DNA from: a virus
DNA length: 21,683 nucleotides
Direction: 5' to 3' (one strand)
Virus record (IMG/VR): IMGVR_UViG_3300037258_000817
Span: 1 to 21,683 of that record
Program-made: the position numbers and the translations under genes
Notes under the pieces: model-generated
Seen by the model: the letters and a program-made list of their open reading frames with translations, nothing else
Database searches by the model: none
Told to the model about the DNA's origin: nothing
Shown here: positions 2,345 through 19,861 of the stretch, piece after piece
Layout of the letters: each line of letters starts with the position of its first letter
Position numbering within the stretch: position 1 is the first letter of the stretch

Positions 2345-2667
2345 GCTGAACCTCTCAAGCTGCGGAGTGGATGCCGGTTATGCGTGAAGGTGCAATTGAA
2401 CCCCGAACCTTCATCCAGAAGTTTCATCAGGCGATCTGCTTCATCGCCGTAGTTGCTGCCGTTGCTGCGGACACGAATGTGATAGTTACGTGCTGAAGTC
2501 CTATGTGGGTAGAACACCAAGTGCACACCGGGTTTCCGATAGACGAACGCTTCATAGTCATGGATGCCCCACTCCAGAGTTCCACCGTCATCAGTCAACA
2601 GCTTCCGAGCGAGCTCAAACTCTCTCTTGTAGAGCTTGTGATACTTGCCGGCGTTCGCGTCAGTCAC
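2341..2667 (-). CDS. Hypothetical protein immediately downstream of the DGR reverse transcriptase
   Basis: A 108-residue protein starting with GTG at 2667; the GTGA junction overlaps the RT stop, so translation is probably coupled to RT. The sequence (YHKLYKREFELARKLL at the start, then GVHLVFYPHRTS and YHIRVRSNGS) suggests an alpha/beta fold rich in Tyr, His and Arg. I do not recognise the family. Its position between the DGR RT and a DNA methyltransferase raises the possibility of a DGR accessory protein, but there is no direct evidence, and the methyltransferase gene is equally tightly linked on its other side. Confidence 0.75.
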   Translation of the reverse strand: MTDANAGKYHKLYKREFELARKLLTDDGGTLEWGIHDYEAFVYRKPGVHLVFYPHRTSARNYHIRVRSNGSNYGDEADRLMKLLDEGSGFNCTFTHNRHPLRSLRGSA

Positions 2668-4088
2668 TGAGCTCTCCTATAGGTCTTGGTGATCTCGCCA
2701 TTGACCATGCGGCCGCGGCGTAATACGGCTCTGCCCAAGGCGATGCGGTCGTTGAGGCTGACCTCGGCCTGGCCGATGAAGCCGAAGTAGCTGTTGGCCG
2801 TCTCCATGAGCTCGTCATCGGGCACCGTGGCGATGGCTTGCACGGCCTTGCGGACGGTGCGCCGGCGGGTGATGCGGCCCTCGGGACGGATGACCTGGCC
2901 GACGAAGTCGATGCCGCGACGGCAGGGATAGAGCAGGGTCTTGGTGGGATTGAGTTCAAGACCGAGCGTGGGCAGGAACAGGTTGACGTCGGCCAGCACG
3001 GCATTGAGCCACTGCGGCGACTTGCCCAGGACTACGAAGTCATCGACGTACCGCACATAGTGCTTGGCCTTGGCGCGGTGCTTGAGCCGCTGGTCCAGCG
3101 GGTCGAGGATGACGTTGGCGAAGAACTGACTCGGCAGGTTGCCGATGGGCAGGCCGAAGCCTGCAGGCTGGTTGATGAGGCGCTTGTAGGTCGGGACCTT
3201 GTCCAGAACCTGCAGGTCGCCCCGGGTCTCGTAGTTCTCGCGGCAATCGTGCCAGAGGATGGTGCCGCAGAGACCGAGCCACCACGGCTCGTGGATCTTG
3301 GCCTTGAGCAGGTCCCATAGGACGCTCTTTTCGATGCGGTTGAAGAAGTTGGACAGGTCACACTTCAGGTACCAGGCCGGCACGGTCCAGTCCTGGGTGA
3401 TGCTGCGGGCATGGCGATCCAGGCGTTTGGCGGCATAGAGCGTGCCGCGCTCTTTCATGCACGCACTACTGCCGACCGCGAACGCGCGCTCGAACCGGGG
3501 CCCGATGCGGTTATAGAGCAGGTGGTGGACGATGCGATCGCGGAAGTCCGCCGCCCAGACCTCGCGGAACTTGGGCTGGCTGATGCCGAAGCAGATGCTG
3601 CGGCCGGGGCGGTAGGCCCCACTCAGCAACTCCTCATAGAGTTCGACCAGGTTGTGTTCGAGGCGGACCTCGAACCGGAGGGCGCTGTGTGTGTTGCGCT
3701 TGCGCTTCCGGCAGTCGTAATAGGCTCGGTAAAGCTCCTCGAAAGAAGGAGCAGCATGGCTGGCTTGGTGTGTCTCTTCGGACGACGAGTGCCCGGTTGC
3801 TGTTGTTCTTGTTCCAGTTGTTCGTGTTGCCGGAACTGAAGTTCTGGTTCCACGCGTAGTTGGACGAGTACTGCGTCTTGTCATGCTTTGGGCATCGCCG
3901 GGCAGAAAGCCTAAGCTGATCTGTCCGGAAACTGCGCCAGACCTGCCGGCAGAGCCGGTGGTATCTGGTTCTCGCGAGGCGGTGGCCACGGGTACCCGTT
4001 GGCCAGCGGCACGACCAGAGTCACTGTAAGCACGGTCCTGCTCGGCTTGCCGGTCAGGATGCTGGCTTGGTGATTTTTGCTTGTTCAC
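2664..4088 (-). CDS. Diversity-generating retroelement reverse transcriptase
   Basis: RT that copies the template RNA into adenine-mutagenised cDNA. The domain runs from about SFEELYRAYYDCRKRKR (residue 115) to the C-terminus. Motif A is LKCDLSNFF (Asp244), LPIGNLPSQ lies at 313-321, and the catalytic YVDD is at 347-350. The [ILV]GxxxSQ form of motif 4, instead of QGxxxSP, is a hallmark of DGR RTs over group II intron RTs; no maturase or endonuclease domain follows. The start is uncertain. GTG at 4088 overlaps avd by 35 nt and has a GGAAA-like site upstream. The ORF then runs through the template repeat (residues about 71-104), giving an unusual Thr/Arg-rich N-terminal region. An in-frame ATG at about residue 69 lies just before the TR; I see no ATG, GTG or TTG between the TR and the RT domain. 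Confidence 0.95.
   Translation of the reverse strand: MNKQKSPSQHPDRQAEQDRAYSDSGRAAGQRVPVATASREPDTTGSAGRSGAVSGQISLGFLPGDAQSMTRRSTRPTTRGTRTSVPATRTTGTRTTATGHSSSEETHQASHAAPSFEELYRAYYDCRKRKRNTHSALRFEVRLEHNLVELYEELLSGAYRPGRSICFGISQPKFREVWAADFRDRIVHHLLYNRIGPRFERAFAVGSSACMKERGTLYAAKRLDRHARSITQDWTVPAWYLKCDLSNFFNRIEKSVLWDLLKAKIHEPWWLGLCGTILWHDCRENYETRGDLQVLDKVPTYKRLINQPAGFGLPIGNLPSQFFANVILDPLDQRLKHRAKAKHYVRYVDDFVVLGKSPQWLNAVLADVNLFLPTLGLELNPTKTLLYPCRRGIDFVGQVIRPEGRITRRRTVRKAVQAIATVPDDELMETANSYFGFIGQAEVSLNDRIALGRAVLRRGRMVNGEITKTYRRAQ
3779..3876 (-). repeat. DGR template repeat (TR), 98 nt
   Basis: On the minus strand the TR reads ACGCAGTACTCG... and ends ...GCACTCGTCGTCCG. In the frame of the targets it contains ten AAC codons (Asn), the classical DGR template codon, whose first two positions can be mutated without ever creating a stop. 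Homology to the three variable repeats starts at ACGCAGTAC and extends to GTCGTCCG plus a few weakly matching bases (to about 3772). It lies between avd and the RT domain, inside the extended RT reading frame but in a different frame from the targets. Of 31 adenines in the TR coding strand, 11-13 are substituted in each VR. Confidence 0.96.
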
Positions 4089-4428
4089 TGTTTTTCCACG
4101 CCGTTGCTTGCTTCCCCATGCTCACCAGTAGAGGGATCGCCTGCTTGTGATGGCTAGGCGCACACAATCCCTTGTCCTTGACGAACCTGAGGATGGTCTC
4201 CATCCTCGACACGTGCTTCTGGATCTGCCTGAGGTGTTCCACGCGGACCTTATGGTCGGTCTCGGTGTTGACGTCGAAGATCAACGACATCGCCTCAAAA
4301 TGCTCGTCCTGGAGCTTGGTGCCGTAGCGCCGGTTGTATGGCCGGCGCATATTCACGGCAATGACATCTACTACGTCGAAGAGCTTGTAGCCCGTCTGAT
4401 AGATTTCCGTGTCGCTATGCAGACCCAT
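4054..4428 (-). CDS. avd: Avd-like DGR accessory variability determinant
   Basis: A 124-residue, mostly helical, basic protein, MGLHSDTEIYQTGYKLFDVV..., with NMRRPYNRRYGTKLQDE in the middle and a heptad-like C-terminal half (VEHLRQIQKHVSRMETILRF). Size, helical content, basic charge and position directly before TR and RT match Avd, which forms a pentameric four-helix-bundle barrel that binds DGR RNA and RT and is required for mutagenic homing. The ATG at 4428 has only a weak AAGG upstream, so translation may be partly coupled to the target gene ending 40 nt before. Its 3' end overlaps the GTG start of RT. Assignment rests on pattern and context. Confidence 0.88.
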   Translation of the reverse strand: MGLHSDTEIYQTGYKLFDVVDVIAVNMRRPYNRRYGTKLQDEHFEAMSLIFDVNTETDHKVRVEHLRQIQKHVSRMETILRFVKDKGLCAPSHHKQAIPLLVSMGKQATAWKNSEQAKITKPAS

Positions 4429-4448: not shown

Positions 4449-4464
4449 CGAATGGATGAATTAC
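4449..4464 (-). repeat. Conserved element 3' of VR1
   Basis: On the plus strand this reads CGAATGGATGAATTAC. It lies 36 nt from the VR1 3' edge, just after the stop codon, and is repeated identically after VR3 and with one change after VR2, but is absent beside the TR. It may be part of the homing-site context that marks a recipient VR. Confidence 0.6.
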
Positions 4465-4468
4465 CGAA

Positions 4469-5098
4469 TTACCGCCAGACTCTGCGGACGACGAGTGCCC
4501 GGCCGCTGTAGTCCTTGCCCCAGTAGTCCGTGGTGCCGGAACTGAAGCCCTGGTTCCACGCGCAGTAGGACGAGTACTGCGTGCTGGACCAGTACACGTC
4601 CTTCTCGAACAGGTGGCCGACGTTGGCAAAGACCTGGTTGAGCTCACAGAGCGCGGGCAGGTAGCAGTCATGGGCGCCGGCGGCCTGGATGGCCACGACG
4701 TCCATGGCGAGCTGACTGCCGGCTTCGGCCATAGCCTTGGTATTGACGGTGCCGTCGCGGAGCGAATCCGCACCCTTGATCTCGGTGGGGTAGCAGCCCC
4801 ACTGACGGTCCTTGAGGACCACGGGCTTGCCATCGGCACCGGTGACCACCACGAGGTCGTAGATGCGGCCGTCCTCGGCGCGGCACTCGGCAGCGCGGAT
4901 GCCGCCCTGTGCGGGCCAGGGATCGCCCAGCGAGGGTAAGTCATCGATGGAGGCGATCGAGCAGAACATCGGCAGCAGCCTGCTGAGGCGCGGACCGCGC
5001 ACGTGCTCCATCAGAGCTTCGGCGACGACATCATGCGGCGCCTTCATGGCAACGCCGCGGTGGCTGAACTCGAAGACCTTTTCCTGTTCCTGATTCAT
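4469..5098 (-). CDS. DGR target protein 1, C-type-lectin-like (DUF1566-like) variable protein
   Basis: A 209-residue protein whose last 37 residues are the diversified segment. The ATG at 5098 is preferred (AAGGGAG 8 nt upstream) over an upstream TTG. Residues 1-58 are an extension unique to this paralog; from about 59 it shares with the other two targets a core containing GGIRA, YDLVVVTGADGKPVVL, DGTVNT and CYLPALCEL. The end, YWSSTQYSSYCAW... to GRALVVRRVWR, follows the WSST...W...F.SG...RxVR pattern of DUF1566/C-type-lectin folds used by DGR ligand-binding proteins. Variable residues fall in 173-205. It follows ssb and precedes avd, the usual place for a cognate target. There is no signal peptide or virion motif. 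Its ligand is unknown. Confidence 0.9.
   Translation of the reverse strand: MNQEQEKVFEFSHRGVAMKAPHDVVAEALMEHVRGPRLSRLLPMFCSIASIDDLPSLGDPWPAQGGIRAAECRAEDGRIYDLVVVTGADGKPVVLKDRQWGCYPTEIKGADSLRDGTVNTKAMAEAGSQLAMDVVAIQAAGAHDCYLPALCELNQVFANVGHLFEKDVYWSSTQYSSYCAWNQGFSSGTTDYWGKDYSGRALVVRRVWR
4485..4582 (-). repeat. DGR variable repeat VR1 (target 1)
   Basis: This 98-nt repeat aligns to the template at 3779-3876 without gaps. It has 13 differences, all at template adenines on the coding strand; for example AAC codons became TAC, GGC, ACC, GAC, TAC, GGC, GAC, TAC and GGC. One AAC (in AWNQ) is unchanged. The downstream bases CGCAGAGTC (against CGAAGAGAC in the TR) are shared with the other VRs and mark the likely initiation-of-mutagenic-homing boundary. 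Confidence 0.96.
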
Positions 5099-8277: not shown

Positions 8278-8296
8278 CTGAATCTCCCGGAATGAC

Positions 8297-8312
8297 CGAA
8301 TGGGTGAATTAC
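8297..8312 (-). repeat. Conserved element 3' of VR2
   Basis: Plus-strand CGAATGGGTGAATTAC, one base different from the copies after VR1 and VR3. It lies 37 nt from the VR2 edge and overlaps the stop codon of target 2, so it is kept although the codons between VR and stop differ from the other two targets. Confidence 0.55.
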
Positions 8313-8920
8313 TGAGCCTGGATGGGGACTCTGCGGACGACGAGTGCCCGGAGGCTGTAGTTCTTGTACCAGCGGTACGTGAGGCCGGAACTGAAGGTCT
8401 GGTACCACGCGTAGGTGGACGAGAACTGCGTCGAGGACCACAGCCATTCCTTGGGCAGCAGGTCACGGGCATGCGCGAAGGCAGCCTGCAGCTCGCAGAG
8501 CGCGGGCAGGTAGCAATCGTCACCGAGGGCACGTACGGCCTTGGCCAGAGGGCTGCCGGCGGCGATCATGGCGTCGGTGTTGGCGGCGCCGTCGTTGAGC
8601 GAGGTCGCACCGGTCACGTCCTGGCCGTACTCGCCCCAGCGCTGGCTGTTCAGCACGATGGGCTTGCCATCGGCATCGGTGGCCAGCAGCAGGTGGTAGC
8701 CGGGCTTGCCGTTCTCACCAGCGAACTCGCCGATGCGGATGCCGCTCTGGCCGTCCCAGGGCTTGCCGATGGCGGGCACGGCCGCAGAAGCCAGCACCAC
8801 CGCCGATGCGGCTAGGGGCTTGCTGACGCGCGCGCGGCGCTTGGCTACGGCACGCTTCTTGGTTGCATGCCGGCGGACCGTGGACTTCTTCTTGATGCGT
8901 TTCTTGGTGCTAGTGGTCAT
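8309..8920 (-). CDS. DGR target protein 2, variable lectin-like protein with Lys/Arg-rich N-terminus
   Basis: A 203-residue paralog of the other targets. The start at 8920 is well supported by AAGGAG 6 nt upstream. The first 34 residues contain 16 Lys/Arg (for example TKKRIKKKSTVRRHATKKR), then a hydrophobic Ala/Val stretch (LAASAVVLASAAVPAIG, 36-52), then the shared core (GKPWDGQSGIRIG, DADGKPIVL, CYLPALCEL) and the variable end (residues about 164-196), finishing RALVVRRVPIQAQ. The N-terminus could be a long signal peptide or membrane anchor, or a nucleic-acid-binding tail; I cannot decide. It lies between the MarR gene and the annealing-protein gene, 4 kb from the RT, so it is a remote target. 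Confidence 0.9.
   Translation of the reverse strand: MTTSTKKRIKKKSTVRRHATKKRAVAKRRARVSKPLAASAVVLASAAVPAIGKPWDGQSGIRIGEFAGENGKPGYHLLLATDADGKPIVLNSQRWGEYGQDVTGATSLNDGAANTDAMIAAGSPLAKAVRALGDDCYLPALCELQAAFAHARDLLPKEWLWSSTQFSSTYAWYQTFSSGLTYRWYKNYSLRALVVRRVPIQAQ
8334..8431 (-). repeat. DGR variable repeat VR2 (target 2)
   Basis: This 98-nt repeat aligns to the template without gaps. All 13 differences fall at template adenines: one TAC became TTC and AAC codons became ACC, TAC, ACC, CTC, TAC, CGC, TAC, TAC and CTC, while one AAC is kept. This codon spectrum differs from VR1 and VR3, consistent with independent mutagenic homing events. Confidence 0.96.
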
Positions 8921-10111: not shown

Positions 10112-10127
10112 CGAATGGATGAATTAC
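10112..10127 (-). repeat. Conserved element 3' of VR3
   Basis: Plus-strand CGAATGGATGAATTAC, 36 nt from the VR3 edge, identical to the copy after VR1. The identity with the VR1 side is continuous for 54 nt (10112-10165 against 4449-4502), running through the stop codons into the VR. Confidence 0.6.
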
Positions 10128-10131
10128 CGAA

Positions 10132-10626
10132 TTACCGCCAGACTCTGCGGACGACGAGTGCCCGGTGGCTGTCGTGCTTGTCCCAGTAGTCCGTGAAGCC
10201 GGAACTGAAGTACTGGATCCACGCGAGGTTGCCGGAGTACTGCGTGTTCGACCACAGGTCTTCGTCGTCCTCGACTTGGACCAGGTCAGGCAGCAGGGCG
10301 CGGACGATGTTGGACTCGCCGATGCTGGGCAACGTGCAGTCGGTCTGGCCGTCGACGGTCGCGATCGCGGCAGCGGCTTTGGAGAGCTCGTGGCCGGCGG
10401 CGAGCAGCGCCGTGTGATTGGCTGTGCCATCGGTGAAGTTGTCGGCGCCCTCGACCTCGGTGCCGTAGAGGCCCCACTCGGCGGCATCCAACAGCACCGG
10501 CTTGCCGGCGGCGTCGGTCACGACCACCAGGTCATAGCTACGGCCATCGGCCGTCGGGATCTCGGCGCCAGCGCGGATGCCGCCCTGACCCTGCCACTGT
10601 TCGCCAATCTTCGGTTTGTCGCTCAT
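10132..10626 (-). CDS. DGR target protein 3, minimal C-type-lectin-like variable protein
   Basis: A 164-residue protein, the shortest of the three targets. The ATG at 10626 is chosen because GGGAGA lies 5 nt upstream; a longer frame to 10692 would overlap the preceding gene. It starts almost directly with the shared core: GEQWQGQGGIRAG, SYDLVVVTDAAGKPVLL, DGTANHTALLAAG, then CTLPSIGES in place of CYLPALCEL, and ends LWSNTQYSGNLAW... to RALVVRRVWR. With no N-terminal extension, signal or anchor, it defines the minimal DUF1566-like diversified unit. Variable residues are about 128-160. It is the first target transcribed from PL, more than 6 kb before the RT domain. Confidence 0.9.
   Translation of the reverse strand: MSDKPKIGEQWQGQGGIRAGAEIPTADGRSYDLVVVTDAAGKPVLLDAAEWGLYGTEVEGADNFTDGTANHTALLAAGHELSKAAAAIATVDGQTDCTLPSIGESNIVRALLPDLVQVEDDEDLWSNTQYSGNLAWIQYFSSGFTDYWDKHDSHRALVVRRVWR
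10148..10245 (-). repeat. DGR variable repeat VR3 (target 3)
   Basis: This 98-nt repeat aligns to the template without gaps. Eleven differences are at template adenines (for example AAC to ATC, TAC, TTC, GAC, TAC, GAC, CAC, GAC, CAC). Four more, at 10227 and 10232-10234, are not at adenines and cluster near the 5' (coding) end of the repeat, where TCG-TCC became TCC-GGC. This end may lie outside the tract replaced in the last homing events. Confidence 0.94.
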
Positions 10627-11527: not shown

Positions 11528-11555
11528 AGTATATACGCTAACGCATACTTGTCAA
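11528..11555 (-). promoter_or_regulatory. Leftward early promoter PL
   Basis: On the minus strand TTGACA (11555-11550) is followed after 16 nt by TATACT (11533-11528). The spacer contains the 20-bp operator. It points at the first left-arm gene (start 11489) and is the only clear promoter found for the whole left arm including the DGR. Confidence 0.85.
11529..11548. promoter_or_regulatory. Operator OL (20 bp, imperfect dyad)
   Basis: GTATATACGCTAACGCATAC, the exact reverse complement of the element at 12332-12351. The inner 16 bp is a partial dyad (TATACGCTAACGCATA, 12 of 16 symmetric). It covers the spacer and -10 of PL, so bound repressor would block transcription. CI is the likely binder; Cro may share it. 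Confidence 0.8.
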
Positions 11556-11579
11556 TGCAGAAACGTATAATTCAGGTGG

Positions 11580-12277: not shown

Positions 12278-12324
12278 GACCTATTGTCCCGGGCCGACCG
12301 TGTCTTGAGAAATGCGGTAGTGAA

Positions 12325-12352
12325 TTGACATGTATGCGTTAGCGTATATACT
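12325..12352 (+). promoter_or_regulatory. Rightward early promoter PR
   Basis: TTGACA at 12325-12330 and TATACT at 12347-12352, spaced 16 nt, the same architecture as PL. The operator fills the spacer. It drives the Cro-like gene (12383) and the replication arm. Confidence 0.87.
12332..12351. promoter_or_regulatory. Operator OR (20 bp)
   Basis: GTATGCGTTAGCGTATATAC, reverse complement of the copy at 11529-11548. It overlaps the PR spacer and -10. Only one full site is visible at each promoter, unlike the triplet operators of lambda. Confidence 0.8.
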
Positions 12353-15359: not shown

Positions 15360-15724
15360 AGACCGCCGTCCGCGACACCAGCATCGAGACTTACTACGCC
15401 AGCATCCTGGCGCCAGGGGTCGAACTGTCTCAGGCCAATCGCATCGTGGCCTATGTGCTGAGCCATCCCTGCTGCACGCGCCGCGAGATCGCCGCGCACT
15501 TCAAGGCGCTGAATGCCGATGACCCGCTGGGCCAAGAGGCCCGAGTCAGTGCGCGCGTCAACGCGCTGCTCAAGCGCCGGTGGCATGGCCAGACGCTTGT
15601 CATGGAGAGCGATGCCGCGGTGACCGATGCCAAGACCGGCGAGCGTGCTTACCCGCTGTACCCATCGAACTATGGCCGCCAGAAGGCGCTGTTCCCTCAG
15701 ACCGAGGCGAGGCCAGCGCCATGA
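15356..15724 (+). CDS. Hypothetical winged-helix-like protein (122 aa)
   Basis: A 122-residue protein starting MKTAVRDTSIETYYASILAP; ATG overlaps the dnaB stop. The segment NRIVAYVLSHPCCTRREIAA followed by HFKALN and ARVSARVNALLKRRW reads like a winged helix (HTH then wing), usual in small phage regulators or replication accessory proteins. No family is named. It is coupled on both sides by ATGA junctions. Confidence 0.7.
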   Translation: MKTAVRDTSIETYYASILAPGVELSQANRIVAYVLSHPCCTRREIAAHFKALNADDPLGQEARVSARVNALLKRRWHGQTLVMESDAAVTDAKTGERAYPLYPSNYGRQKALFPQTEARPAP

Positions 15725-16206
15725 AGATCGTCAAGTATCCGGATGGTCGCCTGAAGCAGGTCTGCACGCCGGTCACGGCCGAGGAACTGCAGCGCGGAAT
15801 CCTCGATGACTACGGCCAGGACCTGGCGACCATGGGGCAGGAGATGTTGAAGACCTGCGCGGCTACCGGCGGTATCGGCATGGCCGGCCCTCAGGTCGGC
15901 ATCATGCGTCGCGTCATCGTCATCAACCTCTCCGGTCAGCAACATGTCCTCGTCAATCCGGTCATCACGAGCCGTCACGGCAAGTTAGGTGGCAAGGAAG
16001 GCTGCCTGAGCTATCCCGGGCGCCGCGTCTACATCGAACGCTCACGGATGGTGCGCGTCGTCGCCCATACCGACATCTATCGCGACGGCTTCACGGTGTG
16101 GGAACCGATGAACTTCAAGTTCTCGAAGCTCATGGCCGCCGTCGCCCAACACGAGATCGACCACCTGGACGGCCTGTGCCAAGTCGCCCCAAAGGAGAGC
16201 GCGTGA
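15721..16206 (+). CDS. def: Peptide deformylase
   Basis: A 161-residue enzyme that removes the N-formyl group from nascent peptides using a metal ion. All three motifs are visible: GIGMAGPQ at 51-58 (GxGxAAxQ, with Gly for the second Ala), EGCLS at 93-97 with metal ligand Cys95, and HEIDH at 144-148 with two His ligands and catalytic Glu145. The N-terminus MKIVKYPDGRLKQVCTPV is also standard. It is slightly shorter than E. coli Def (169 aa). Phage deformylases are known from cyanophages and some others; it probably supports rapid processing of phage or host proteins during infection. The ATG overlaps the upstream stop. Confidence 0.95.
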   Translation: MKIVKYPDGRLKQVCTPVTAEELQRGILDDYGQDLATMGQEMLKTCAATGGIGMAGPQVGIMRRVIVINLSGQQHVLVNPVITSRHGKLGGKEGCLSYPGRRVYIERSRMVRVVAHTDIYRDGFTVWEPMNFKFSKLMAAVAQHEIDHLDGLCQVAPKESA

Positions 16207-16919: not shown

Positions 16920-17083
16920 TGGGCCCGGTCTGGTGCGAGCCCTGCAAGCGCATCAAGACCGTGGCCTGCGCCCGCTGCGTCGAGGCAGCAAGTAACCAGG
17001 ACAAGACCAAGACGACACCCGAAACCGTGACAGGAGGGAGCAATGGGAACCATCGAAGAGCGCATCACCAAGATCGTAAGTGA
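16919..17083 (+). CDS. Small zinc-ribbon-like protein (54 aa)
   Basis: ATG at 16919 overlaps the previous stop (TGATG) and opens a 54-codon frame [20 protein letters not shown]... with two CxxC pairs (CEPC, CARC) nine residues apart, a typical small zinc knuckle. The C-terminal 13 residues overlap the start of the acyl carrier protein gene. The cysteine spacing and the overlap style make it likely real, but the tail is probably not structured. Confidence 0.55.
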
Positions 17084-17291
17084 CCACCTGGCGGTGAAGC
17101 CGGAGGCGGTGACTACGGACGCAAAGTTCGACGAGGACCTGGGCGCTGACAGCCTGGACCAGGTCGAACTCGTCATGGCCATGGAGGAAGAGTTCGAGTG
17201 CGAGTGCCCGGATGAGGACGCGGCCAAGATCAACACCCTTGGTAGTGCCGCCGCCTACTTCCGCCAGCACATGAGCGGCGCCGACGATTGA
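17043..17291 (+). CDS. acpP: Acyl carrier protein
   Basis: An 82-residue acidic [23 protein letters not shown]..., with the phosphopantetheine site DSL (Ser37) in [20 protein letters not shown], which matches bacterial AcpP closely. The second half is shortened and altered relative to AcpP ([20 protein letters not shown]). AGGAGGGAG precedes the ATG. It carries acyl chains on a pantetheine arm in fatty-acid or related synthesis. An ACP in a phage early region is uncommon; it may be a decoy or redirect host lipid or modification chemistry. No acyltransferase is visible in the window. Confidence 0.95.
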
Positions 17292-19861
17292 TGGAACAGG
17301 CATACCGCCAATTCCTGGAGCGCAAGATCGCCGTAGCCCCACAGCGGGGCTTCGACGTGAGCGAATCGGAGATCAGCGAGAAGCTGAAGCCGATGAACCG
17401 CCGCGTGGTGTGGTGGGGGCTCCGTGGCGGCCGGCGTGCGTTCTTCATGCGGTTCGGCCTGCACAAGACCGTGACGCAGCTCGAGGCGGCACGTCAGGTG
17501 CTGGCGAGGGAGGGCGGTATGGCCCTCATCGTCTGCCCTCTCAACGTCCGTCAAGAGTTCATCCGCGATTCACGCCAGCGCTTGGGATGGGAGACGCCGC
17601 CGCGCTTCGTCCGCACCACCGAAGAGTTCACTCAGCCCGGCATCTACCTGACCAACTATGAGAGCGTGCGCGAAGGCAAGATCGACATCCAGGCCCTGAT
17701 CTCGAAGGGTCTCATCTTCGTCAGCCTGGACGAGGCCTCCATCCTGAGGGGCTTCGGGGGCACCAAGACCTTCCGTGAGTTCATGGCCGTTGTGGCCGGC
17801 GACGACCGCCGCCAGGGCGCAGCCATCAAGACCGATGGTGTGAAGTACCGGTTCGTGGCCACGGCCACGCCGGCGCCCAATGAGTACATCGAGCTCCTGG
17901 CCTATGCAGCCTTCCTCGGCATCATGGATGTGGGGCAGGCCAAGACCAGGTTCTTCAAGCGCAACAGCGAACAGGCGGACAACCTCACCCTCCATCCGCA
18001 CAAGGAAGAGGAGTTCTGGAGGTGGGTGGCGTCCTGGTCGGTATGGGTTACCAAGCCCTCCGATGTGGACCCGAGCTTCAGCGACGATGGCTACGAGCTG
18101 CCGCCTATGGACGTGCACTGGCACGAGCTGCCGAGTGATCACCGCGGTGCCGGCGCCGAGAAGGACGGCCAGAACCGACTGTTCAGCAACGTCGCCGCCG
18201 GGATCCAGGACGCAGCCCGCGAGAAGCGCGAGAGCCTGGAGCCGCGCATCGCCAAGATGCTGGAGCTGCGTGCCCTAGACCAAGACGCTCACCGCTTGCT
18301 CTGGCACGACTTGGAGGCAGAGCGCCATGCCATCGAGGCCGCCGCGCCATCCAGCGTCAGCATCTACGGCAACCAAGACCTGGAAGAGCGCGAGCAGGCC
18401 ATCCTCGATTTCAGCGATGGCAAGATCCAGGAGCTAGCCGCTAAACCCGTCATCGCTGGCAGCGGTTGTAATTTCCAACGCCACTGCTCGTGGGCGATAT
18501 TCCTGGGCATCGGCCACAAGTTCAACGACTTCATCCAAGCCGTGCACCGCATCCAGCGGTTCCTGCAGACCGAGCGCGTGCGCCTCGATCTCATCTACAC
18601 CGAGGCCGAGCGCCCAATCCGCCAGAACCTGGAGCGGAAGTGGCAGCAGTACGACCGGCAGATGGAGAAGATGGTCGCGATCATCAGAGCGTATGGACTC
18701 GGCGCCATCGCTGGTGACGGCATGACCAGGAGCCTCGGAATCGAGCGGGCCGAGGCTTCGGGTGCGAACTGGACCTGCGTCAACAATGACTGCGTAGACG
18801 AGCTCTCGCGCATGCCCGACAACAGCGTCGGGCTGATGGTCTCCAGCATCCCCTTCGCCACCCAGTATGAGTACACGCCGAGCTACAACGACTTTGGTCA
18901 CACCGACAGTAACGACCATTTCTGGGAGCAGATGGACTTCCTGACGCCGCAACTGCTCAGAGTGCTGCAGCCAGGACGCATCTGCGCCATCCATGTGAAG
19001 GACCGGATCACGCCCAGCGGGCTGTCCGGGTTCGGCTTCCAGACCGTCACGCCTTTCAGCGATGAGTGCATAGCCCACTTCAGGAAGCACGGTTTCGCCT
19101 TCCTGGCCAGGAAGACCATCGTCACGGACGTGGTGCGCGAGAACAATCAGACCTACCGGCTGGGATGGAGCGAGCAGTGCAAGGACGGGACCCGCATGGG
19201 CGCCGGCATGCCCGAGTACCTGCTGGTGTTCCGCAAGGGCAACACCGACCCCAGTAACGGGTACGCGGATCTGCCGGTGGTGAAGGACAAGGGCGCCTAC
19301 ACTCGCGGCCGCTGGCAGTACGACGCTCATGGCTTCATGCGTAGCAGTGGCAACCGGCTGTTGCTATCTCCCGAGCTTCGCAAGCTCACCCAGGCCGACA
19401 TCTTCAAGCTGTTCAAGAAGCACTCGCTCGAGGATGTCTACGACTTCCGTTTCGACGTGAGCGTCGCAGAGCACATGGATTCCCTGGGCTGGCTGCCCAG
19501 CACATTCATGCTGCTCCAGCCGCAGAGCCTACATGAGGACGTATGGACCGACGTCACCCGCATGCGGACTCTCAACAGCCTCCAATCCAGCGCAGGCAAG
19601 GAGATGCATCTCTGCCCGCTGCAGTTCGATGTGGTGGACCGGTGCATCGAGCAATACACCATGAAGGGCGAGACGGTGCTGGACTTCTTCGGGGGCCTGG
19701 CCACGGTCGCCTATCGCGCAGTGAAGCTCGGCCGTAAGGGCCTCAGCATCGAACTCAACTCAGGGTATTGGGCAGACGGTTGCACCTACTGCGCCGCGGC
19801 GGAGCGCGATGTCGATATGCCCGACATGTTCCAGCTTCTCGAACAGGAGGCCGCAGCGTGA
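17291..19861 (+). CDS. SNF2/SF2 helicase-DNA methyltransferase fusion protein
   Basis: An 856-residue protein; ATG at 17291 overlaps the ACP stop (TGATG). Residues about 1-470 form an SF2 helicase: FMRFGLHKT at 52-60 (altered Walker A, normally GLGKT), LDEAS at 146-150 (for DEAH), FVATATPAPNEYIEL at 188-202 and a motif VI-like QAVHRIQRF at 416-424. Residues about 495-856 form an amino-methyltransferase: VNNDCVDELSRMPDNSVGLM, SSIPF at 518-522 in place of DPPY, PEYLLVFRK, and motif I VLDFFGGLATVAY (797-809), giving beta-class order (motif IV before I). It probably methylates adenine N6 or cytosine N4 while moving on DNA. The methyltransferase half is of a type I recall from phage genomes. Confidence 0.9.
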   Translation: MEQAYRQFLERKIAVAPQRGFDVSESEISEKLKPMNRRVVWWGLRGGRRAFFMRFGLHKTVTQLEAARQVLAREGGMALIVCPLNVRQEFIRDSRQRLGWETPPRFVRTTEEFTQPGIYLTNYESVREGKIDIQALISKGLIFVSLDEASILRGFGGTKTFREFMAVVAGDDRRQGAAIKTDGVKYRFVATATPAPNEYIELLAYAAFLGIMDVGQAKTRFFKRNSEQADNLTLHPHKEEEFWRWVASWSVWVTKPSDVDPSFSDDGYELPPMDVHWHELPSDHRGAGAEKDGQNRLFSNVAAGIQDAAREKRESLEPRIAKMLELRALDQDAHRLLWHDLEAERHAIEAAAPSSVSIYGNQDLEEREQAILDFSDGKIQELAAKPVIAGSGCNFQRHCSWAIFLGIGHKFNDFIQAVHRIQRFLQTERVRLDLIYTEAERPIRQNLERKWQQYDRQMEKMVAIIRAYGLGAIAGDGMTRSLGIERAEASGANWTCVNNDCVDELSRMPDNSVGLMVSSIPFATQYEYTPSYNDFGHTDSNDHFWEQMDFLTPQLLRVLQPGRICAIHVKDRITPSGLSGFGFQTVTPFSDECIAHFRKHGFAFLARKTIVTDVVRENNQTYRLGWSEQCKDGTRMGAGMPEYLLVFRKGNTDPSNGYADLPVVKDKGAYTRGRWQYDAHGFMRSSGNRLLLSPELRKLTQADIFKLFKKHSLEDVYDFRFDVSVAEHMDSLGWLPSTFMLLQPQSLHEDVWTDVTRMRTLNSLQSSAGKEMHLCPLQFDVVDRCIEQYTMKGETVLDFFGGLATVAYRAVKLGRKGLSIELNSGYWADGCTYCAAAERDVDMPDMFQLLEQEAAA

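Follow-up and report, generated by a model that had tools for sequence, protein, structure and literature searches.

In the Bordetella phage BPP-1 (mtd / avd / TR / brt), a target gene, avd, the template repeat (TR) and the reverse transcriptase (RT) gene follow one another in this order, the TR is rich in AAC, changes are directed to adenines, and a lectin-fold gene ends in the VR, whose own 3' end carries an IMH. Diversity-generating retroelements (DGRs) with more than one VR have been surveyed, and in the accessible portions of these surveys one TR feeds several VRs, the targets are paralogous DUF1566 proteins, and a TR overlapping the RT 5' end is one known layout (PMC3521204, PMC6642488). 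Neither a multiplicity of VRs in one DGR nor targets of DUF1566 type is new, according to the same portions of these sources, in which the sparing of adenines before G and periodic repeats flanking the VR are not reported. The DGR analysed here shares the listed features of BPP-1 as well as the single TR with several VRs and the paralogous DUF1566 targets of the surveyed DGRs. It is of a known kind and belongs to a large proteobacterial phage and prophage family, of which about 170 loci were collected; its adenine pattern by itself is textbook.

The window, that is the whole stretch of 21,683 nt that was analysed, covers IMG/VR record IMGVR_UViG_3300037258_000817 from end to end and is possibly only a fragment of a phage genome. 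It carries temperate-phage genes for an S24 repressor, a RecE-like nuclease, SSB and a DnaB-like helicase. A DNA search of the whole window against phage records returned DUF5131 in mycobacteriophages as the sole match. A 41-nt inverted repeat (11528-11568 / 12312-12352, 85% complementary) stands on either side of the S24-type repressor gene, and its arms are possible operators. The window also encodes a peptide deformylase (15580-16206; PF01327, E 9e-30), an acyl carrier protein (17043-17291; PF00550, E 3e-13) and, adjoining the latter, a single 857-aa ORF (17288-19861) that combines a DNA helicase part with an N6/N4 DNA methyltransferase part.

On the minus strand, target 1, avd, TR and RT are laid out in this order, and targets 2 and 3 are codirectional at distances of about 4 and 6 kb. 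The conserved part of the DGR reverse transcriptase occupies 2664..3755 (minus strand; PF00078, PHROG_1423 'Reverse transcriptase', E 3e-104) in an open frame that reaches 4088. It contains IGNLPSQ, the DGR-type [IVL]GxxxSQ that replaces QGxxxSP, together with YVDD (YxDD), and its best solved relative in a profile search is BPP-1 bRT (PDB 8ub7, E 3e-51). Avd (accessory variability determinant), whose gene many but not all DGRs have, is encoded at 4054..4428 (minus strand; PHROG_3206 'Avd protein of DGR', E 8e-13); its match to Pfam bAvd, with an E value of 2e-7, falls under Pfam's curated cut-off. A covariance model placed the RT-15 RNA (Rfam RF03018) at 3874..4070 on the minus strand, where it stretches from around the avd stop as far as the TR 5' end, with a full-length match of 131.6 bits against a gathering score of 82 (E 3.5e-31). 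The RNA was found at the same position in 12 relatives and was not found in five more distant loci that were searched. It is filed in Rfam as a generic sRNA gene, whereas here the full-length match ends at the TR 5' end, and we infer that it is probably the 5' domain of the DGR RNA. The RT-15 RNA was reportedly defined by Weinberg et al. in 2017. Judged by start codons, the RT gene of this family seems often to start within its own template repeat: an in-frame ATG lies inside the TR in 126 of 166 scorable loci, and an ATG at most 75 nt after the TR is present in only 13. The window and its relative L011 have no in-frame ATG inside the TR, and their RT frame continues upstream across it without a stop (window 3774-4088).

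All three targets are encoded on the minus strand, and in each the VR codes for the final ~35 residues. Target 1 (209 aa, 4469..5098) was modelled by AlphaFold, from an alignment that omitted two rows taken from phage records, with a pLDDT of 89 as an Lcl_C/DUF1566-like C-type-lectin fold. The best PDB match of this model in Foldseek is 8q4e, the C-terminal domain of Legionella Lcl (E 5e-4), which a profile search also returned (E 7e-8), and the C-terminus is thus predicted to be a C-type-lectin-like fold. Targets 2 (203 aa, 8309..8920; PHROG_4245, E 3e-25) and 3 (164 aa from ATG, 10132..10626; PHROG_4245, E 7e-21) are homologues of target 1 with 49-53% and 51.5% identity, respectively, and pairwise identity among the three is 46-53% (BLASTP). 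The N-terminus of target 2 has a Lys/Arg-rich stretch followed by a hydrophobic segment, a possible export or membrane signal by its composition, and differs in this from targets 1 and 3.

The TR (3774..3877, minus strand, 104 nt with 34 adenines) belongs to a four-copy repeat family whose other members are VR1 (4480..4583), VR2 (8329..8432) and VR3 (10143..10246), located on the same strand at the 3' ends of target genes 1, 2 and 3. The first-pass annotation had counted 13, 13 and 15 differences from the TR over 98 nt, 37 of the 41 at TR adenines and none elsewhere in VR1 and VR2. An ungapped realignment with the minus strand as coding strand (TR 3779-3876, VR1 4485-4582, VR2 8334-8431, VR3 10148-10245) reproduced each of these counts, and differences at other bases, looked for specifically in VR1 and VR2, numbered zero. 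The 98 nt of TR consist of 31 A, as counted before, 32 C, 22 G and 13 T. With this composition, the hypergeometric probability that all 13 differences fall on adenines by chance is 3.8e-8 in VR1 and likewise in VR2, and that of 11 of 15 in VR3 is 3.9e-4. The copy at 3774..3877 is taken to be the donor because the VR differences lie at its adenines (37/41). Positions 1 and 2 of ten AAC codons hold 34 of the 37 adenine changes, in line with what had been described, and the other three are in TAC codons. The accompanying statement that no outcome can be a stop codon is right for the AAC and TAC codons and fails for one AAG codon, which could become TAG; this single AAG of the TR is unchanged in VR1, VR2 and VR3.

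The four non-adenine differences of VR3, at 3865, 3864, 3863 and 3858 in TR coordinates, are its 5'-most ones, and 3' of 3858 all 11 differences are at TR adenines, a clean boundary. From this distribution the last homing tract of VR3 appears to start at about 3858, and only under the assumption of such a short tract are the four 5' differences accounted for. A DGR survey has used a cut-off of at least 75% of VR differences at TR adenines (PMC8144416); the values here are 100% for VR1, 100% for VR2 and 73% for VR3, or 90% overall. Past activity at all three targets, as first proposed, is clear for VR1 and VR2 and, in the part 3' of 3858, for VR3 as well, the four non-adenine differences lying in the stretch from 3858 in the 5' direction. 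The reading as DGR mutagenic homing is also supported by the complete DGR anatomy of the window, in which RT, Avd, TR and three C-terminal VRs in Lcl_C/DUF1566-type, lectin-fold targets of ~200 aa are all present. DGR mutagenic retrohoming explains the observed pattern with a probability of about 95%.

Adenines were targeted as originally stated, with the refinement that the targets are adenines without a following G. In the window, adenines before G are changed in 0 of 15 cases and other adenines in 37 of 78 (P 2e-4). Over 340 distinct TR/VR pairs, changes affect the first A of AAC in 70% of cases and the second in 47%; the values are 36-41% for adenines elsewhere that precede A, T or C and 1.3% for those that precede G. 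Within the changed tracts (family interior), 6 of 691 adenines before G are changed. The same holds at fourfold-degenerate third positions, where changes hit 1 of 154 adenines that precede G and 52 of 199 in other contexts (P 1e-13), or 0 of 26 and 37 of 126 when only the tract interior is counted (P 7e-4). In other clades, which are labelled here and below by the query that found each locus rather than by a tree, the changed AG adenines are 12/23 (BPP-1-type), 14/68 (VHML-type) and 1/37 (Bacteroidota-type). A general rule for all DGRs was rejected on the BPP-1-type value. Every BPP-1-type AG change is A to G, equivalent to a misincorporated C, and these changes are compatible with error data for BPP-1 bRT in E. 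coli, whose errors depend strongly on which base follows the A, with G misincorporated at NAG at just 0.08% (PMC12875486). A strong enzymatic bias in the base placed opposite A has been argued against, and in the accessible portion of that argument neighbouring bases are not among the things tested (PMC3521204). Since sparing at silent sites is hard to obtain from selection on the protein, we ascribe the AG sparing mainly to RT fidelity, so that it would be largely enzymatic, and it is clade-specific. AAG codons in family TRs have their first A changed in only 19 of 245 cases, compared with 1642 of 2343 where an A precedes AC, which may reflect protein selection or a longer-range context effect.

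Both the adenine bias and its refinement might have other origins. The four copies could be diverged paralogous segments in which codon selection, rather than reverse transcription, produced the bias, and the three targets are indeed paralogous, with the changed sites mostly in AAC codons. This account is scarcely credible, as VR1 and VR2 have zero substitutions at C, G or T over 98 nt, synonymous sites included, third-position adenines not before G are changed often in the family (120/345), and RT, Avd and the RNA adjoin. Against it stands also the co-variation of TR and VR between the window and L011, whose RT is 83% identical to that of the window and whose TR has four differences from that of the window. 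In three of the four (T>G, G>A, A>T) L011's own VR agrees with the L011 TR, and the window VRs keep the window base; the one departure is a third base in VR3 at the T>G site, inside the unreplaced 5' end of VR3. Each VR thus tracks its own TR after the split of the two lineages, which is direct evidence for TR-to-VR copying and dates it after the split, as a single alignment could not. Adenines before G, in turn, could be spared because the lectin fold needs the residues concerned (Gln of CAG, the invariant Lys of AAG, Ser). The invariance of that Lys in the alignment and the rarely changed first A of AAG, where selection is possible, agree with such a need, but fourfold-degenerate third positions are equally spared and the sparing varies with the RT clade, and we regard a purely structural cause as improbable. 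RT fidelity, our preferred explanation, would make a sharper rule, A without a following G, readable from genomes through silent sites and clade dependence and open to biochemical tests.

The survey comprised 187 RT-bearing loci, 15 distant ones (L017-L031) included; they were picked by RT similarity, so that the sample is skewed to close relatives and relatedness makes the sequences non-independent. With flanks limited to 10 kb, which makes the counts lower bounds, 7 loci have no VR, 24 have one, 107 two, 47 three and 2 four, giving at least one VR in 180 of 187. TR adenines are the site of 4979 of the 5257 TR/VR mismatches. The VR-bearing ORFs have a median length of 201 aa and, in annotated family phages, are found close to genes for recombination, repressors and integration and away from tail genes; the other phage DGRs compared mostly adjoin tail or baseplate genes. 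A 17-nt TR pattern was found at ten loci in viral contigs, none with a TR/VR relative.

At its 3' end the TR carries an IMH*-like core, GTCCGAAGA (3775..3783, minus strand), and TR/VR homology stops just past this motif throughout the family. The IMH core of the VRs is GTCCGCAGA (minus strand, 4481-4489, 8330-8338 and 10144-10152). Beyond the 98 nt the single consistent TR/VR difference lies in this IMH-like motif, at 3778, with A in the TR and C in all VRs. The window and L011 share the TR form GTCCGAAGA; the conserved family form is GTCCGCAGA. The last 15 nt are identical between TR and VR in 219 of 289 pairs, and an IMH/IMH* difference was rejected on this count as a family-wide mark of donor and recipient.

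Each VR of the window is followed on the minus strand by an AT-rich direct repeat of about 20 nt with a period of 8, which begins a few nt past the IMH (about 6 in most of the family). After VR1 it reads ATTCGGTA ATTCATCC ATTC (4450..4469, 23.4 bits), after VR3 the same sequence recurs (10113..10132, 23.4 bits), and after VR2 it spans 8290..8317 in two registers, 8290-8309 and 8298-8317 (20.7 and 14.7 bits). These scores come from a matrix trained solely on prophages from other genomes' contigs, and the window and L011 are in the held-out set. Outside the three sites the best score in the window is 4.3 bits, the other strand reaches 3.0 bits and the TR flank -9.8 bits. In held-out loci the matrix matches 201 of 220 VR flanks, 0 of 105 TR flanks and 0.8% of random 45-nt stretches; 14 of the 19 missed VR flanks are from distant loci (L018-L031), and the in-family rate is 201/206. 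A first matrix, applied to both strands of 3.0 Mb at 14 bits or more, gave 431 matches near VRs and 31 elsewhere, several of them at contig edges. Matches away from recognised VRs in L112 (e.g. 1255, 3863, 4353), L114 and L178 possibly mark further or decayed targets. Among 62 representatives that share less than 65% identity, identity at lag 8 is 0.49, compared with 0.29 after shuffling with base composition alone preserved (z 18), and lag 16 gives z 12. Other clades show a period of 7-8 as well, at lag 7 in VHML-type (z 10.6) and, with 4-5 representatives each, 7 in Bacteroidota-type (z 7.0) and 8 in Lagaffe-type (z 4.0) and BalMu-type (z 3.7) loci; BPP-1-type VR flanks, tested for a 7-8-nt periodicity, had none. 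About 32 nt after VR1 (4449-4480) and VR3 (10112-10143) are identical while the proteins are only about 51% identical, and VR, IMH and repeat may travel between genes as one block.

With TR and VR identical over the last 15 nt in most pairs, the repeat is the best candidate for a recipient mark, and its position and specificity incline us slightly towards a role in marking the homing target. Alternatively, it could be a 3'-end feature of the target mRNA that provides multi-frame stops, RNA stability or termination. The target stop codon usually does lie in the first repeat unit (9 or 12 nt past the IMH core in 223 VRs), and some members have a GC hairpin further downstream, of at least 6 bp in 93 of 275 family VR flanks and by this criterion absent from the other 182. 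Stop codons in all three frames were dropped as an explanation, units 2 and 3 often being stop-free. We consider an mRNA feature rather doubtful, given also that the repeat is nearly exclusive to VR flanks across the 3.0 Mb, that other DGR clades have comparable 7-8-nt repeats after their VRs, and that in most VRs it is fixed at ~6 nt from the IMH, the position of the hairpin required for homing in BPP-1. There, the 24 bp after the VR, hairpin included, are required for efficient homing, and the term 'direct repeat' is never used (PMC3240598). GC-rich hairpins 3' of the VR are frequent among DGRs but do not define them. The repeat could also be a mere passenger in duplications of target genes or of their 3' ends, as the identical 32 nt following VR1 and VR3 would allow; a different sequence with the same period after VR2, and the period kept in the 62 diverged representatives, make this a poor prospect. 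No prior description of a VR-flanking period-8 repeat was found in the open-access literature, where absence proves little. As a homing element, a constant repeat present only at VRs would offer a testable answer to how donor and recipient are told apart and how several targets are recruited.

In the process that these observations suggest, a transcript would run from the end of avd through the structured 5' RNA (Rfam RT-15) into the TR, and RT and Avd, by carry-over from BPP-1, would reverse-transcribe the TR transcript. Errors would arise opposite adenines, bar those before G, and the mutated cDNA would replace the 3'-terminal VR in all three paralogous lectin-fold genes, which belong to the leftward early operon of a temperate-type phage. 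The repeat would help to define the recipient, with information flowing one way from TR to VR. A wider proposal, to which we give even odds, joins these points: repeats of period 7-8 just 3' of the VR would be a general target-recognition element in most phage DGR clades, steadier in this family than a BPP-1-like hairpin, and would let one TR feed dispersed genes without overwriting itself, and in this clade the RT would also have evolved near-faithful copying of A before G, shielding chosen codons such as CAG and AAG.

The closest named relatives are Burkholderia phage Magia, Pseudomonas phages Cruim01, LPPA56, Haboob and SC_8_H2H8, and Shewanella phage vB_Sb_QDWS, whose RTs are 57-59% identical to that of the window. 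Like the window they have the RT-15 RNA, and small proteins encoded close to recombination genes carry their 2-3 VRs; the annotators of Magia had already flagged lectin-fold proteins, with an IMH-like region, as possible targets of a DGR. Their TR motif is GTCCGCAGA (GTCCGCAGC in LPPA56), in contrast to GTCCGAAGA in the window and L011. Compared with BPP-1, which has one tail-protein target, the window has three small early-region proteins. BPP-1-type VRs alter AG adenines (12/23), whereas the window VRs do not (0/15). A hairpin lies 4 nt past the BPP-1 VR, which is without 7-8-nt repeats; a GC-rich hairpin (at least 5 bp, GC at least 60%) was sought within 90 nt of each window VR and not found, and in its place each of the three VRs is followed by the period-8 repeat.
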